The notes under the pieces were generated by a model. The model ran no database searches and was not told where the DNA came from. It saw only the letters and a program-made list of their open reading frames with translations. Below, piece by piece: positions 2,976 through 55,845 of a DNA stretch of 64,000 nt. How positions within the stretch are numbered: position 1 is the first letter of the stretch; each line of letters opens with the position of its first letter. Source of the DNA: a virus; the IMG/VR virus record IMGVR_UViG_3300009130_000014, positions 25,607 through 89,606 of that record, one strand, 5' to 3'. The position numbers and the translations under genes were made by a program.

Positions 2976-5900
2976 TGGAAAATTTAAACAGATTAAAAAA
3001 GGGCATAAATCAAGATGTTCATCCTTCTGAGCAACCAGAAGAAACATATAGAAATGCTGTAAACTTTGTAAGTTTAAGCATGGACGGTAATGCGTATTCT
3101 TTAGTCAATGAAGATGGGACATTATTATTAGAAACTGTAAAGTTTCCTATAGGGAAACAAGTAATAGGTCATTGTGTATTAAACAATGATATCATTGTAG
3201 TATTAGCAGGAGAAGACGGAACAAGTCAAATAGGTTATATTAGAGAAGATTCTTCTAATATAGATCCTGACTATGGCTATTATCATCCTGTTGCTCCGTA
3301 TAATCCTTCAGGGGCTACTATACGAGATCAATATCCGGAAAATAATTCTGAATTTGGTTTTAAACTAACTCATGGGGTAGACTGTCAAGCTAGAAAATTA
3401 ATTAACGGGAATAGGGTTTTGTATTATACAGATAACTTAAATCCTTTCGGTAGAATTGAGTTAGAAAATCCTCCTGAAGTAGGAAATGTTTCAGAGCAAT
3501 CACAGTTAATATTTAATCAGCAAGTTCCTACTATTTCATTAAAAGAAATTAGAGAAGATGTCCCTAGTAATATACAGCCTGGGGTATATCAATTTGTACC
3601 TAGATATGTAACAGAAAATGGAGGTACTACTACATTCGGAATACCTTCTAATTTAATAAGCATGGTTCCTGCAAATAAGGACCTGGGTGTAAATCAATAT
3701 AGCGGAGAGTTTTTTGAAAACGGGACTATATCTAAAAACATAATAATAGATATAGAAAACATTGATCAGAACTACCAAGAACTTGAACTGATAGTAGCTT
3801 ATTATCAGGAATCAGGAGTTTTTCAGGCAAAGTCTTTAGGTCGTTTTCCTATTACAGGAGAAACTTTAGAGTATACATTTACAGGACCTGTTACCGGAGA
3901 GGAGATAGGAATAACTAGAGAAGAGCTACAACAAACTCCCATAACCTATAAAAGAGCAAAAGCTATTGAGCAAAAAGATAATACTTTATTTCTAAGTAAT
4001 TTATCAGATGATACAATAGATGATGCTGCCATGCAAGAAGTAGCTAATCATATTTCTGTTCAATATCAAATAGAGGAAATACCTTATTCAGGAAGAGAGG
4101 GTACTTTAGATACTTCTATAAATACAAATATATTTACTGAAACAGCTATTGAAATAACCGGGTTAAACACCATAGAAGTTACTTTTTCAGACGAAATAGA
4201 TTTGGACGGAAGTGCGTCAGGTAATAATAACATAGTATTTGATCCGATAAGTCAAACCACTTCTGCAAATTATGGATTTAATGATCACTTTATAACTAGA
4301 TCAGGAGAATCCAGTTTTGCTAATATAAATACATCTACTGTCACGTTAGGCGATACAATGTTAGTAGACTCTATCACTTTCACTGCTGTAGCCACAGTAG
4401 CAAATACGTCTACAGAATATCTTATAGGAGGCGATCAAGAAGAAACTACAGAGAACTTAGCAAGGGCTATTAATACAGATCCAGGAGGAACTCGTAATTT
4501 TATAGCAGTTCCTTTTTTAGATGGTAGCATTTTAAAAATTAAATTAATATGGAAAGGAAACGATAACACAAAAGTTATTGCATATACCGGAACAATTACA
4601 GGAGATCTTATATTTTCAGGAGGAACTTCTGCATCGGATATTATTAATGTCACTAATATAGAAAAAGTATCAGATAATATATTAGAGTATACTTTTGGCT
4701 CTATAGACAGGATAAGTTTAATAGATCAATTTACATCTATAGATGCTACAAAGTTTATAGTAGGCCCTCAAGAAAGTATAACCGTTACAGGAACTCCTAC
4801 TTTAACAGAAGACACAACTACTGCTACTATAGATGCAACTCAAGAAGGATTTACTGATTTCTTATCAGAAAAGGTAGGATTTGAGAAAAAAGGTTACCGC
4901 AGAGGCGAGGTTTATTCATTAGGCATTATGTTATTGTTCAAAGATGGGAGCACCAGCCTTGTTTATCATATACCGGGTAACGATAAACTTACTACGACAC
5001 TAGGTAAAAATTACCCTAGTGTAGCTAATTATAGAGTAGGTAATACTTTCGGTAATACAGGTACTTATCTATCTAATTTAGAATATCCTTTGGATCAATT
5101 TTTCCCAGGGAATGACACAGGTGATGATGATTTTGGAAATACTTCAAGTACTTCTCGTAATATTAGACATCATGTTATGCCTAATTTAACTCAAGAACCT
5201 CATTTTAGAAAGCTAAATGATGGTACTACAGTTATAAGAAATATAGGTTTAAAGTTCACACTAAATTCTTCGTTTGATATTCCTGCTGATATACTAACTA
5301 ATGTACAAGAAATAATATTAGTTCGAGAAAGACGTAACATAAGAATAAACAGATCTGTATTAGCTCAGGGTTTAATTAACAGACTTGTTGAAACAGCAGA
5401 TACGTATACCCTTGATGGTCAAGTAGATGGCTCTGTGTCTAATGGGGTTCGGTCTAATTACCATCTTCAAGAAATACCGTTCTTTAATAATTTAGAAAGC
5501 ATTGATATAAGGGGAGATGAATATAGAGAAAAAAGAGGTCATTCAAGAAGAGGTGTATGTTATCCCGGAGCATCTGCGGCAGAATCTACATTCGGAGCAG
5601 GAGCGGGTACCTTTTCTAATGGAGAAAAAATGAACACTCTAATACGAGGTAATAGAGCATTTTTTCATTGTCCTGAATCTATTCTTGCATATGATTCCAA
5701 GATAGATCCTGATAATTTACAAGGACTTAAAATGAGACCTTGGATGTTAATGGAAGGCGAATCCTTTACTACAAGTGCTGAACCTAATGCGTACAGAGGT
5801 ACTAAAGGAAATGACTATGCTGATTGGTATGGATACCATGATGCTATAGGAAATTATCAAGATTATGATAACACTTATTTACCAGATTCTACTCCTGTAG

Positions 5901-23746: not shown

Positions 23747-26700
23747 ATGGCTGCATGTCCTAATAAAAATAGTGAAGAGTGGAAAGAATTAGTAGATAAA
23801 GTAGGTAGTGAAATAGAAGCTACTTACTTATTTATTAAAAATAATTACGAAATACCTTCAGATCCTGATGAGGTAAGAACGACAGAAGGATATGATTTTT
23901 CATCTTCTGCAAGAGAAGAAGTCTTTGAATTTAATAAGATAGTGAATGTTAGAGATCAGCTTCTTCAAGCATTGGGTGCAAAATATAATGCACATAAAGG
24001 AACAGATAATAAGCAATACCTGACAGATTTAAAGAAACTTATTGAAGATTTTAAGAAAGCAGATATTGAAGCAGGTATGCATATATTTTTAAATAATGCT
24101 CATTCTAAATTAGAATCGTTAGATAAGAAAATGTCTGCTCAAAACAATGACTTAGGAGTTCTGCATACTATGAATAGCTTTGCGGGAACTTTTGGATTAA
24201 TAGATCAAATAACCCCGTATTTAGATAATCCTATATTAGAGTTTGATGAAGAAACTAAAAAGAGTATTACAAGCATTAATGGTAAAGTAAAAAGATTACA
24301 TTCTAAATATATAGGATATGCTAGAAAAACATTAGTTCATAGGTTAGCAGCAGAAAGTACTATTGAAAGAACTAAGAGAAAAGAAAAATTAAAAAAAGAT
24401 TTTGTTAAAAATAACCCTAGAAAAGATTCAGGGTTAAATGAATCAGATTACATAAAAGCTCAAACTGATTATGTAGAAAAGGCATTAAATGATCTAGCTA
24501 ATGATATACGACAGGCTGAAATAGAGCGTATTAGAGAATTACTTGTTTTGGCTCCAGATGATATTGATACTATTACAAAGAATATAATGGATCCGAGAGG
24601 AGTAAATGAATCTATTATACAGTTAACTGTAAAAATGTTAGATAAAGCAGACTTTGATGCCAAAGAATCTTTTATAAACAGCAGAAGATCAGCATTATCT
24701 GTATGGGAAAAGTTCAAGGATTCTAGAAATGCAGGAGGGGTTATTACAGATCAAAAGAAATTATACGAAGATATAATAGAAAAGATCGACGGAAAAGAAA
24801 CTCAATATTATACAAGACCTTTATTTTCAACTTATTATATAGCAAAAGATGAGATGTGGGAAGAATATAATAAATTGAAAGATGAAGGTAAGAAGAAAGA
24901 AGCTAAAAAGGTTTTAAAAGATTGGAAAAATAAATATCTTATTGACAAGAAAGGGAAGTTCATACCTTCTAATACAAAACCTGAATTTCATAATCCTCAG
25001 TATAAAACTATATATTCAGACTCTACTAAAAAGGAAATGTATAATTTTTTAGTAGCATTTAATAACGAATCTGATTCTATGGTTAGAGGGAAAAATAAAT
25101 TAGAATATAAATTACCTTCTATCTCACAAAGAACAGCAGAGAAAATAATAGACTCCGAAGGAGGTATTATTGAAGTAGGAAAAGAATGGTGGAAAGATTC
25201 TGTTCAAGGGAGAATAGATGATGAACAATTCGGTAATATAGAACAGAATGAAGACGGCACTATTAAAGTATTAACTGATCAATTTGGAAAACCTCTTAAG
25301 AGAATAGCAGTTCCTTTTAGAGGTGATATTGAAATAACAAATCAATCTTATGATTTAATGGGAATGAGTCTTACTAATAGATATGCTTCTTTAAATTTTA
25401 AAGAAAAAGATGCTATTAAGAAAGACCTAGAAGTGCTTTCTGATGTGGTTTCAGAAAGAGATGTTCGAAAGACATCTGGTGATAAAGTCATAATGAAAAC
25501 ACTTAGCTCGATACCGGGAATATCAACAGAAGAAATAAACGACGTGGTAGATACTATTCCCGGAAGAGATTCTAACACTTTTGAATTACTTACTAGCTTG
25601 TTGGAAGATCGTTTATATGGAAAACATCGAGCAGCTATATCTGAAATGGATATTAAATTAGATAAACTTTCAGATAAAGCAATACAAGCTTCTTCTCATA
25701 TGATGCTGATAGCCAATCTGTTAGGAGGAACTTCCAATTTAATTGCAGGTAAAACTATGAACTTTCTGGAATCTACCAGATCTATTCATTTTAATACTAA
25801 GAATTTAGCTAAGGCTGAGGAATTATATTGGGGTGATATAGGAGGAATAGTGAGGGATATGGGAAGCCTTGCTCCTTCTTCTATGACAGGAATGTTAATA
25901 GAAAAATTTATAGATACCTCTATGGACTTCAGCCCTCTCTCTAATCATCTGACTAAAGATACAAAATTCAAAAGGCTTTTTAATATGGGAACCTTGCATG
26001 GAATTAATAGCAGTGCTGAGCATTATATTCAAGGTTCTTTAATGTTTAGTGCCTTAGATAATATTAAGGTAGTAGATAAAGAGACTGGTAAGTATGTAAC
26101 CTCTAAAGGTCAACTTACTGATAATAGAGACGAAGCTGCGGGAATGTATTACGGATACACTTCTGAAAACGGATTAAAATGGAATCACTCATATACTATC
26201 GAAGGTCAGAAAGAAGTAACTCCAGAAGTAGAGCAATATGTCAATTCTAAAACAAAAGATATAATTGCGGATTTACAAGGTATGTACGACGGTACTAATA
26301 AATCTATGATAGAAAGAGAATGGTATGGAAAACTAGCATTCTATTTACGAAAATGGATGGTTCGAGGTACGTTAAGAAGATGGAGGGGGATACAGCACGC
26401 TTCTAAAGAATTAGATGAATTAGAAGATCATCAAAGATTTTACTCTGAGTCTACTCAGGATTTTAAAGAAGGAACGTATACTAGTTTAGCTAGATTCTTT
26501 ATAAACACTCAGTCTAGAATTAGAAAGATGCAGTGGGAATTAATGAGGCAGGATTGGGATTCTCTTTCTGATATGGAAAAGGGTAATATCAAAGCAGCAG
26601 CTACAGAAATAGCTGTCATGGTAGGCTCTCTCATAGCCTCTAACTTTCTAGCAGGTTTAGCTAAAAAAGAGCCAGATGAAGAGGATAAGGAATTACTGTA

Positions 26701-42472: not shown

Positions 42473-42706
42473 TTAACTTTTTTCTATTTCTTTTAACAAA
42501 GTCTTTCCAGTGATATTTAAAGAATGTCTTTTAATATTCCAACCTTCAAATGATACATTTACTAAAGGAGACCACCTACTTGACCAAACACGCCCTTCTT
42601 TATCAGTGTCTTTTATCCAATTGTAAATATTTATACACTCTTGAGCATCTTTTTTGTACTCAGGCTCTTTTAATTGTCTTTTTAAATGATTCATTAATTT
42701 GCCCAT
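42473..42706 (-). CDS. Hypothetical protein (77 aa)
   Basis: A basic, aromatic-rich soluble protein starting 'MGKLMNHLKRQLKEPEYKKDAQEC', with 'GRVWSSRWSPLVNVSFEGWNIKRHSLNITG' in the middle. No family, membrane segment or metal motif. Its first base is the last base of the dNMP kinase gene (TAATG), so the two are translationally coupled. Confidence 0.45.
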   Translation of the reverse strand: MGKLMNHLKRQLKEPEYKKDAQECINIYNWIKDTDKEGRVWSSRWSPLVNVSFEGWNIKRHSLNITGKTLLKEIEKS

Positions 42707-43977
42707 TACACTAAATTTAATTGTTTAACTTTTTCTACTAAAGAAGGTATGTCTGAATTATTATCAATAACATAATCAAATTTATAATCGTCTAAAGCTG
42801 TTTCTGAAGCATGTTGAGGATCTTTAAACAAAGATAATTCAGAAGGTAATACTTGTGCTTCTGCCATACAATCTTGTTGTATTATCCATGCTTCTTCATT
42901 GTTTATACTTCTTATTTTGTATACTCCAGAAGAAAATCCTTCAGGATCATCCCAATAAACTATATCATCTATTTTGAGTCTATTAACCCTAATAACAATA
43001 CCACCTCTATCTTTAATAGCTTTAGCTTCATTATGGAATCTGACATCTGTCACCAGCCAAGATGGATATACTATATTAGTTTCATTTTCTTTTAGATATA
43101 AATTTTCTCTTTCTAAATAAGCTTCTTCATAAGCTTCAGACGCTTGTTCAGCAGTATCAAAATAACCTAAAAACTTTCTTTTTTTATTAATTTGAATACT
43201 AGCTCTCCACCCATGTTTATCTTTAGAAACTCCTCTATATCCAGAACTATTATCTTTTCTAGTTTTAGTATTAATGCTTTGTACGGAGTATGTAACTACT
43301 CTACAATTATTTGGAGAATAAATACCATCATTATTAATTCTATCAATAGTTAAATTATCATTATATCCTTTAGACTTTGCCCAACTAATAAAACTTTCAA
43401 TAGAATTACTCCACTCATCACACATTTTAATACCTCTTCCTCCATAATCATTATATCTAGGATGCTTTGGATTATTACATCTTTGTTTAATATTATGGTA
43501 AGCTCTCCATATTTTAGTGTTTTTATAACCATGTTGCAATCTATTGTCTTTATAAATATTGCTTGTAGTTATATCAGTTAAAGGTTTATAATCAGCAAAT
43601 AAAGCATTTACCCAAACATCTTCACCAAAAATCTCTTTTTGTTTTTCAGCAAACTCTACGTATTGGGGTCTTATCTTTTCTTTATCTTCTCTAGATAATT
43701 TATGATAATTAATACCTGTAATTAACTCAAAAGCTTTAGTAGTTTTATCTGCATATTTTTTTATTTGGTAAGATTGATTATTTAACCATTCTGAATCCCC
43801 AAATCCTTCAATATGGTTGTTTTTTAAAAAATATTCACAAGTTTGTCTTTCATTTAAATCTTTAAATTTTAAGTAGTCTAAATACTGCAATATCTTACCT
43901 ACAGTATCTTTACCTGAACCTATCTTCCCACTGATTCCAATGAGATTGATAGGGTGCTTTTTATTTGTTTTTGTCAT
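42706..43977 (-). CDS. dNMP kinase with in-frame HNH-AP2 endonuclease insertion (423 aa)
   Basis: The N-terminal part is a phage deoxynucleoside monophosphate kinase: Walker A 'GISGKIGSGKDT' at residues 14-25 and 'FGEDVWVNALFADY' at 117-130. The kinase resumes at 'YPSWLVTDVRFHNEAKAI' (304-321) and continues to the end, with a small beta-type insert (about 334-385) common in Bacteroidota phage versions. Between about 132 and 303 lies a complete homing-type endonuclease: an HNH domain (about 155-237, with 'YNDYGGRGI', 'CDEW', 'LTIDRINNDG', 'NNCRVVT') and an AP2 DNA-binding domain (about 246-288, 'GYRGVSKDKHGWRASI'). No stop or frameshift breaks the frame, and no intein splice residues are visible. 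Kinase and HNH calls are strong; whether the kinase is active is unknown. Confidence 0.85.
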   Translation of the reverse strand: MTKTNKKHPINLIGISGKIGSGKDTVGKILQYLDYLKFKDLNERQTCEYFLKNNHIEGFGDSEWLNNQSYQIKKYADKTTKAFELITGINYHKLSREDKEKIRPQYVEFAEKQKEIFGEDVWVNALFADYKPLTDITTSNIYKDNRLQHGYKNTKIWRAYHNIKQRCNNPKHPRYNDYGGRGIKMCDEWSNSIESFISWAKSKGYNDNLTIDRINNDGIYSPNNCRVVTYSVQSINTKTRKDNSSGYRGVSKDKHGWRASIQINKKRKFLGYFDTAEQASEAYEEAYLERENLYLKENETNIVYPSWLVTDVRFHNEAKAIKDRGGIVIRVNRLKIDDIVYWDDPEGFSSGVYKIRSINNEEAWIIQQDCMAEAQVLPSELSLFKDPQHASETALDDYKFDYVIDNNSDIPSLVEKVKQLNLV

Positions 43978-53915: not shown

Positions 53916-54672
53916 TTAATTATTAATTACAGGTATTCCTTCTTCTTGAGATAATATATGCTTGAATACTTCAGGTTCCATTTCCTCAAAGTCAAACGTA
54001 TTTAATTTATTATAAACAGGTATAGTTAAATCAGTGGCTCCTGATCTTTGCTTTACTAGTTCAAAATATACCATTTGATATACATCTCCGTCATTTTCAA
54101 TTTTATATCTAGTAGGTAAACTATTAGAAGTATATTTATGAAGTCCTAATCTTGCAGGAATATGACTAAATAATATATAATCAGAGCATTGTTCTATTGA
54201 ACTAGCTCCAAATAAACAACTAGTATCAGGTCTGTGCATATCACTATTTTGTATTCTAGGTACGGATTTTATTTCCCTGTTCATCTGACTTAATACAATA
54301 CCTACTGAATGCCCTCCATTAGCTGCTATATATTTCTTAGCGTCTACTAATAGTAGCATTAGTGCATCTATTCTTTCTTTTTCAGATTGTCCATCTTTAC
54401 CTTTCACTAATAATGCATGATCAATTTCATAAATAATAGTTTTATTCTCAGGTTTACATTCATTTTCCCAATAATATACTATTGAATCTGCTATCTTTTC
54501 AGGAGTAGCAGACACGTCTATGAAATCAATATCACGTTCACTCATACTTGTATAAAGCTCTTTTAAAGCTTTAAATGTCTCTTCTTCTAACGGCTCATCT
54601 ACTGAATATAATTTCTTTAAAGACATTCCTGTATCTGAAACAACACTTCTTGCTATTTGCTGATGGCTGACC
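53916..54672 (-). CDS. dnaB: DnaB-type replicative helicase, exon 2
   Basis: This is the second exon of an interrupted helicase. Reading upstream of the internal Met (MSLKKLYS) gives 'VSHQQIARSVVSDTG', which continues the FNFEM motif encoded by exon 1 with correct phase. Visible motifs: a Walker B-like 'TIIYEIDHALL', 'GIVLSQMNRE' (the DnaB 'qLnR' motif) and 'KQRSGATDLTIPVYN' (the conserved 'KxRnGxtg' element) near the end. Joined exons give 347 residues, only the ATPase domain; the DnaB N-terminal helical domain is missing. It unwinds the fork ahead of polymerase. Exon boundary was placed from phase, motif alignment and the group I rules. Confidence 0.8.
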
Positions 54673-55558
54673 CAGTTTTGTTACCGTAAAAGCTCTTTAT
54701 CTTTTACTTCTGTATTTTTTGTCTTAAATTATATACAGCTCAGACTATCTCTTCATAAAGATTGATGTTGGCATCTCTTTATGTTCCGCACTCTTGGTAC
54801 TTCATTCTCTTCAGCTCCACCTGTTAAGACAGTATGTACTAGTCGTTGTTCCTTTATTATATTTCTATAATACTTGGATAAGGGTTGTCCTTTTCAGGAG
54901 TTTCCCAGATTCACGAAATTACGAGACTAATTTGTATTTCATAGATTCAAGTGTTATGTATGGAGCTATAAGATTCTTAAAGTCTTCTTGTGATTTTTTT
55001 CTAATAGTCAGTCTATTATCATGAGTATGGTTAGTATCCAAATCATATTTCTTTAATAAGAATATACGAAGTGTTTTCACACATTCTCTACTAAATCCAC
55101 AAGTAGCTATACTAAATGTTCCTCTTTCTTTAACTACATGTCCATCATCCATATAATGAACAGCCATTGCAAGAGGTGTGTAGTATTTTTCTAATAAACT
55201 TTCTTTTATAACTTTTACATTATTGACATAAAACATGTTTCTAAATTCATCAAGTAATATATTGTTGCAGATTCTCATCGCTACAATAGAATAAAACTTT
55301 CCTGTTTTTTTATTAGGAGTTTTTCTTTTATAGCTTTTCACTGTAGTAGTTAAAGCTCCATTTCCTAATATTTCAGCTTTCCATTCTGCATACTCTTTTT
55401 GTTTAGGTCCATGTTGACAAGTCATAAAATTATACTTGTCTGTTTTACCTTTACGTATAGATGAGTCACCTAAGACTGTACCCACTATAATCTGTTTTTC
55501 AATATCTGTTAACATATTATAAAGTTAATAAACACTGAAAACATATACAAATTGCTTT
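54673..55558 (-). mobile_element. Group I intron in the DnaB-type helicase gene
   Basis: 886 bases interrupt the helicase coding sequence. Exon 1 ends in U (…GAGAU), the intron ends in G (…AAAACUG), and joining them restores the frame and the DnaB motif F-N-F-E-M. Downstream of the endonuclease ORF are group I core elements: 'CUGGGAAACUCC', then GACUA at 54840-54844 in 'CAACGACUAG' and UAGUC at 54743-54747 in 'GAAGAGAUAGUCUGAG', which pair as P7. The catalytic core is thus in the last 250 bases, and the endonuclease ORF lies near the 5' end. Splicing was not tested; P1 pairing is weak by eye (GAGAU with GUUUU). Confidence 0.85.
54919..55515 (-). CDS. Intron-encoded LAGLIDADG homing endonuclease (198 aa)
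   Basis: Two LAGLIDADG motifs are visible: 'IVGTVLGDSSIRK' (about residues 10-22) and 'PLAMAVHYMDDGHVV' (about 113-127), so a single chain with two pseudo-symmetric halves, of the LAGLIDADG_2 type often in group I introns. It would cut intronless dnaB copies and so spread the intron. It lies wholly inside the intron, 43 bases after its 5' end, and is transcribed in the same direction as the helicase. Family call is strong; target site is inferred to be the exon junction. Confidence 0.85.
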   Translation of the reverse strand: MLTDIEKQIIVGTVLGDSSIRKGKTDKYNFMTCQHGPKQKEYAEWKAEILGNGALTTTVKSYKRKTPNKKTGKFYSIVAMRICNNILLDEFRNMFYVNNVKVIKESLLEKYYTPLAMAVHYMDDGHVVKERGTFSIATCGFSRECVKTLRIFLLKKYDLDTNHTHDNRLTIRKKSQEDFKNLIAPYITLESMKYKLVS

Positions 55559-55845
55559 ATCTCAAAGTTAAAGATATATTGTTTAAATTTTTGATCCTTG
55601 TTTAAATCAGATATAGAATCTCTTACACATTTAGATAAAGTACTTTTACCAGCACCCGACATTGCAGATATGCATAATATTGTATCTAATTCTATACCTC
55701 CTAATAAACAAGAATCTAATCTAGGGAATTTTGTTTTTAATGAAGAGATATTCCCCATCATTCTATCATAAACATATTTGTAGTTTTCTTTAGCTACATG
55801 TTTAGAAGAAGTCTTCTTCATTACTTTAGACGATCTTGATGTCAT
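55559..55845 (-). CDS. dnaB: DnaB-type replicative helicase, exon 1
   Basis: The first exon encodes 95 full codons plus two bases. It contains 'LDSCLLGGIELDTILCISAMSGAGKSTLSK', with Walker A residues S63-G-A-G-K67-S68, and ends in 'YIFNFE', the beginning of the DnaB 'FxxEM' element. Read-through into the intron would add a short tail ('FVYVFSVY') and stop at 55525. It overlaps the upstream 198-residue gene by 20 bases. The start codon at 55845 gives a short Ser/Lys-rich N-terminus with no DnaB N-terminal domain. Confidence 0.8.

Follow-up and report, generated by a model that had tools for sequence, protein, structure and literature searches.

A predicted mobile group I intron with a LAGLIDADG endonuclease interrupts the DnaB-type helicase gene of a crAss-like phage

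Introduction

Yutin et al. (2021, PMC7886860) described group I introns that carry endonucleases in crAss-like phages, where they lie in core genes, among them replication genes and ATP_43b, and most of this account is repeated in a 2023 review (PMC10136315). Here, we describe an intron of the same kind in a 64,000-nucleotide stretch of viral DNA (positions 25,607 to 89,606 of the IMG/VR record IMGVR_UViG_3300009130_000014; hereafter the window), where it interrupts a DnaB-type helicase gene at its FNFEM motif, within the codon for Met; neither DnaB nor the FNFEM site is named by Yutin et al.

The interruption of DnaB in crAss-like phages is already visible in public records, since the genes of cr6_1, cr118_1 and PhiCrAssBcn14 are split in GenBank. 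In cr6_1 and cr118_1 (L045:1275-3280 and L046:1960-3283) the split lies inside Walker A, between GISGSG and KSS, unlike the site in the window, and the inserts are intron-like, belong to a different lineage and are annotated as separate helicase or hypothetical open reading frames (ORFs). The DnaB of PhiCrAssBcn14 is split like that of the window, with a ribozyme that is 75% and a LAGLIDADG protein that is 38% identical, but its LAGLIDADG intron sits elsewhere, between RD and AN in the H3 region. The gene is split although the word "intron" is absent from the main text of the PhiCrAssBcn paper (PMC10354031). At Walker A, the same DnaB appears to be interrupted once more (L001:1508-2146), by an insert that encodes a GIY-YIG endonuclease. 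What is new in the window is therefore the FNFEM insertion site, which was not found elsewhere; the kind of element itself is well known.

Results

The helicase gene and its restored frame

The main features of the locus are as follows.

55559 to 55845, minus strand: exon 1 of the DnaB-type helicase (287 bases), from Walker A to FNFE and the AU of the Met codon; joined ORF matches DnaB_C, collinear with intron-less relatives
54673 to 55558, minus strand: group I intron (886 bases); covariation, lineage model built without the window's copy 190.5 bits, RF00028 33.2 bits
54919 to 55515, minus strand: LAGLIDADG homing endonuclease ORF (198 amino acids) in the P1 loop; PF03161 89.5 bits, phrog_11023, I-SceI-like
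53916 to 54672, minus strand: exon 2 of the helicase (757 bases); joined ORF, collinear with relatives

The original prediction had read the region as a DnaB-type helicase split in two and had stated that removal of 54673-55558 restores one frame and the FNFEM motif, and this was confirmed to the base: joining of the exons gives an open frame of 348 codons, counting the terminal stop, and recreates the motif FNFEMVSHQQIA. The joined protein of 347 amino acids scored 57.9 bits against Pfam DnaB_C, for which the cut-off is 27 (E 1.4e-15), and DnaB structures in the PDB were matched by a profile built from its relatives (E 2e-14). The gene upstream overlaps the helicase start and an ATPase gene lies downstream; the gene order around the helicase resembles that of annotated Suoliviridae (Crassvirales) records and, therefore, the predicted assignment as crAss-like holds. 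The helicase is ~30% identical to those of named crAss-like genomes. Since the frame is split, it follows that the phage would depend on splicing for a full-length helicase.

Ribozyme structure and covariation

About 30 related introns were gathered from similar DNA in PhiCrAssBcn14 and by two pattern scans of IMG/VR; a pattern scan of genome contigs gave no match. A group I structure comprising P3, P4, P5, P6, P6a, P7, P7.1, P7.2, P8, P9 and P9.1 was defined by hand and evaluated in an alignment of 21 sequences, the window and 20 relatives. Its elements in the window, together with the guide sequence, are:

54913 to 54918, minus strand: P3 5' strand, partner 54789-54784; all cells (100%) of its six pairs are paired, with two-sided changes in four
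54840 to 54844, minus strand: P7 5' strand GACUA, partner UAGUC at 54747-54743; invariant in 21/21 sequences
54797 to 54839, minus strand: P7.1/P7.2 extension, a group IA feature; compensatory changes in 4/4 P7.1 pairs
54754 to 54783, minus strand: P8 hairpin; two-sided changes in six outer pairs
54686 to 54738, minus strand: P9 and P9.1 hairpins, preceding the 3' splice site; compensatory changes in both
54922 to 54927, minus strand: guide sequence GUCUCG, the 3' strand of P1; pairs with UGAGAU of exon 1 and coincides with the two codons before the stop of the endonuclease ORF; 12-intron pairing test

In this alignment 97.0% of the cells were paired, compared to 77.9% after shuffling and 31-46% after sliding, and compensatory (two-sided) changes were found in 43 of 61 core pairs. 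The window copy is fully paired in P3, P4, P6, P6a, P7, P7.1, P9 and P9.1 and has the P3/P7 pseudoknot, with the P7 pairing exactly as predicted. P7.1 and P7.2 are a mark of group IA and point to an IA-like intron. A covariance model of the lineage, built from 19 related introns with the window's copy excluded, matched the window intron with 190.5 bits (E 5.9e-41), so that its identity as a group I intron, as originally proposed, was corroborated. This model found no second significant match in the window and gave a single match in the whole 89.6-kb record.

Splice sites and guide pairing

The guide GUCUCG (54927-54922) pairs with the terminal UGAGAU of exon 1 (55564-55559) over 6 base pairs, with a U.G pair at the splice junction, and lies just 5' of P3, as it does throughout the lineage. 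Exon 1 ends in U and the terminal intron base is G (54673); these splice sites, already named in the prediction, agree with the sequence, the exact P1 and the collinear relatives. In the 12 introns for which protein homology located the exon end, own exon and guide paired over 6-7 contiguous positions in every case (12/12), compared to an average of 3.5 in swapped combinations. An initial search for P1 was not stringent enough to name insertion sites alone, and a weaker P1 with GUUUUC near the intron 5' end was dropped because the guide of the whole lineage shortly precedes P3 and GUCUCG pairs perfectly there.

The endonuclease

The ORF in the insert encodes a LAGLIDADG_2 protein (Pfam PF03161, 89.5 bits), in line with the prediction, and also matches phrog_11023. 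Among proteins of solved structure it is closest to an intron-encoded endonuclease and to I-SceI, the latter being the nearest named one. The host gene of I-SceI is yeast mitochondrial rRNA. I-SceI is of the same LAGLIDADG type and could be aligned over residues 10-196, but is distant in sequence. Relatives in viral contigs were not found by a single-sequence search, whereas an aligned search found nine. Both Asp-bearing motifs are kept, Asp17 and Asp124 being invariant among the relatives, and, as judged from its sequence, the endonuclease is intact in its motifs. Its final sense codons and stop, GUC UCG UAA, serve at the same time as the guide and as the beginning of the P1-P3 joint and, therefore, the ORF fills the P1 loop. 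PhiCrAssBcn14 shares this arrangement (GUC ACG UAA).

Empty sites in relatives

All 92 helicase loci examined, duplicates among them, lack an interruption at the window's insertion point and align through the joint; an intron at the FNFEM site was thus not found in any of the relatives examined. Among them are five distinct close relatives: L003 (71% identity), L004 (60%), L048 and L050 (62-63%) and L005 (57%).

Relatives of the intron in other genes and at other sites

The same ribozyme lineage interrupts a MoxR-type AAA ATPase inside Walker A, between GEPG and TGKT (L008, L010), and the gene of the neighbouring ATPase, ATP_43b, at Walker B, after VIDD (L006, L012, L018), the names MoxR and ATP_43b being given from motifs and gene order and not from a family search. 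In the MoxR-type introns of L008 and L010 a GIY-YIG endonuclease was seen in the P1 loop. Elsewhere in DnaB, the lineage is found at GASS(I)EHC (L005, no endonuclease), between RD and AN in ..RDAN.VIG.. (L001, L007, L016) and between HAD and TVIG (L027). Its endonucleases are of the LAGLIDADG or GIY-YIG type or missing, and are placed in the P1 loop or after P7.

In a tree of ribozyme cores, the window was placed with the ATP_43b introns (support 0.99, ~186 positions), whereas the nearest endonuclease relatives sit in DnaB at the RD-AN site. These different groupings suggest, tentatively given the short alignments, that ribozyme and endonuclease may differ in their history. A hop from the Asp site in the DnaB H3 region, whose exon also ends in GAGAU, was considered as a possible origin: the endonuclease relatives are there, but the ribozyme tree leads to the ATP_43b introns.

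Several further matches to the lineage model per contig were seen in L023, L019, L006 and L032, so that a genome neighbourhood may contain more than one intron. In L009 (reverse complement, 4467-5455) the helicase frame is off by one base compared to the matching L007 (989 vs 990 bases), due to a mutation or an assembly error. Staphylococcus phage PT1-1 (L002:2311-2920) has two tandem group I introns just upstream of its tape-measure gene (Rfam 41.5 and 51.4 bits); one of them matches the crAss-like lineage model with 87.9 bits, a hint that the lineage may extend to a wider range of hosts.

A possible second insert in the window

A dNMP-kinase-like ORF of 423 amino acids (42706-43977, minus strand) contains an in-frame block of ~200 residues that reads like an HNH and AP2 homing endonuclease, between ...VNALFADYKP and YPSWLVTDVRFHNE.... 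The block has no stop codons and gave no Rfam group I match at E<1. It is possibly an in-frame intron or a "ShiLan"-like insertion (PMC11855218).

Discussion

We are nearly certain that a mobile, IA-like group I intron with a LAGLIDADG endonuclease in its P1 loop interrupts the crAss-like DnaB-type helicase gene, with a predicted capacity for splicing and homing. In vivo, the RNA would fold around P3-P8 and the guide GUCUCG would pair with the end of exon 1; the terminal G would mark the 3' site, and two group I transesterifications would then join the exons into the mRNA for the 347-residue helicase. The LAGLIDADG protein is predicted to cut intron-less helicase alleles at or near the insertion site, and repair of the cut allele would copy the intron in.

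Three observations weigh against this assignment. Rfam RF00028 (group I) matches 54980-54722 at full model length, with E 2.1e-6 when 1.2 kb was searched, but the score of 33.2 bits is below the gathering threshold of 50 bits and a window-wide search at this threshold was empty; the threshold is a library cut-off and not a structural feature of the class. No P10, in which exon 2 would pair with the guide region, was recognised by eye in the window. Finally, one of the two patterns used to scan for helicase relatives requires the FEM motif and, therefore, favours intact sites, for which reason the five close relatives are safer evidence for an empty site than the count of 92 loci.

DnaB genes are common hosts of inteins, but an intein or another in-frame protein insertion is extremely improbable here: the exon-1 frame runs into stop codons within the insert, which contradicts a continuous frame, no Hint domain was found, LAGLIDADG_2 being the only Pfam domain in the insert ORF, and the RNA covaries as a ribozyme. 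It is also very unlikely that the intron is decayed and does not splice, the helicase being made as two polypeptides or being dead. Exon 2 has an in-frame ATG (54626), 16 codons in, from which a second polypeptide could start; however, P3, P4, P6, P6a, P7, P7.1, P9 and P9.1 of the window copy are fully paired, P1 is exact, the terminal G is present, both exons are open and conserved, and a split between Walker A and the remaining motor should inactivate the helicase. Another view is that the intron is kept as a regulator which delays or times helicase expression, as the prediction had suggested for early expression. With the frame split, a full-length helicase would require splicing, and translation of the last endonuclease codons, which overlap the guide, could compete with splicing. 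Nevertheless, we consider such a role improbable, since none of the relatives examined keeps an intron at the FNFEM site, the close ones manage without it, and the lineage turns up at unrelated sites and in unrelated genes, as a selfish element would; the timing proposal found no support, the parts being those of an ordinary mobile intron.

A broader scenario is conceivable, but we regard it as doubtful: one lineage may have repeatedly entered active-site motifs of replication-module ATPases (DnaB H1a and H3 regions, ATP_43b Walker B, MoxR-type Walker A) in crAss-like and related phages, swapping endonucleases, with terminal codons that double as guide so that endonuclease translation competes with helicase splicing.

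General knowledge of group I introns is unchanged by the window intron, but the annotation of the locus is corrected, the two "helicase fragments" being one gene. The Rfam group I threshold misses this ribozyme lineage, and a lineage-specific covariance model is gained together with a new insertion site. In addition, the close relatives with an empty site open homing and splicing of the intron to direct test.
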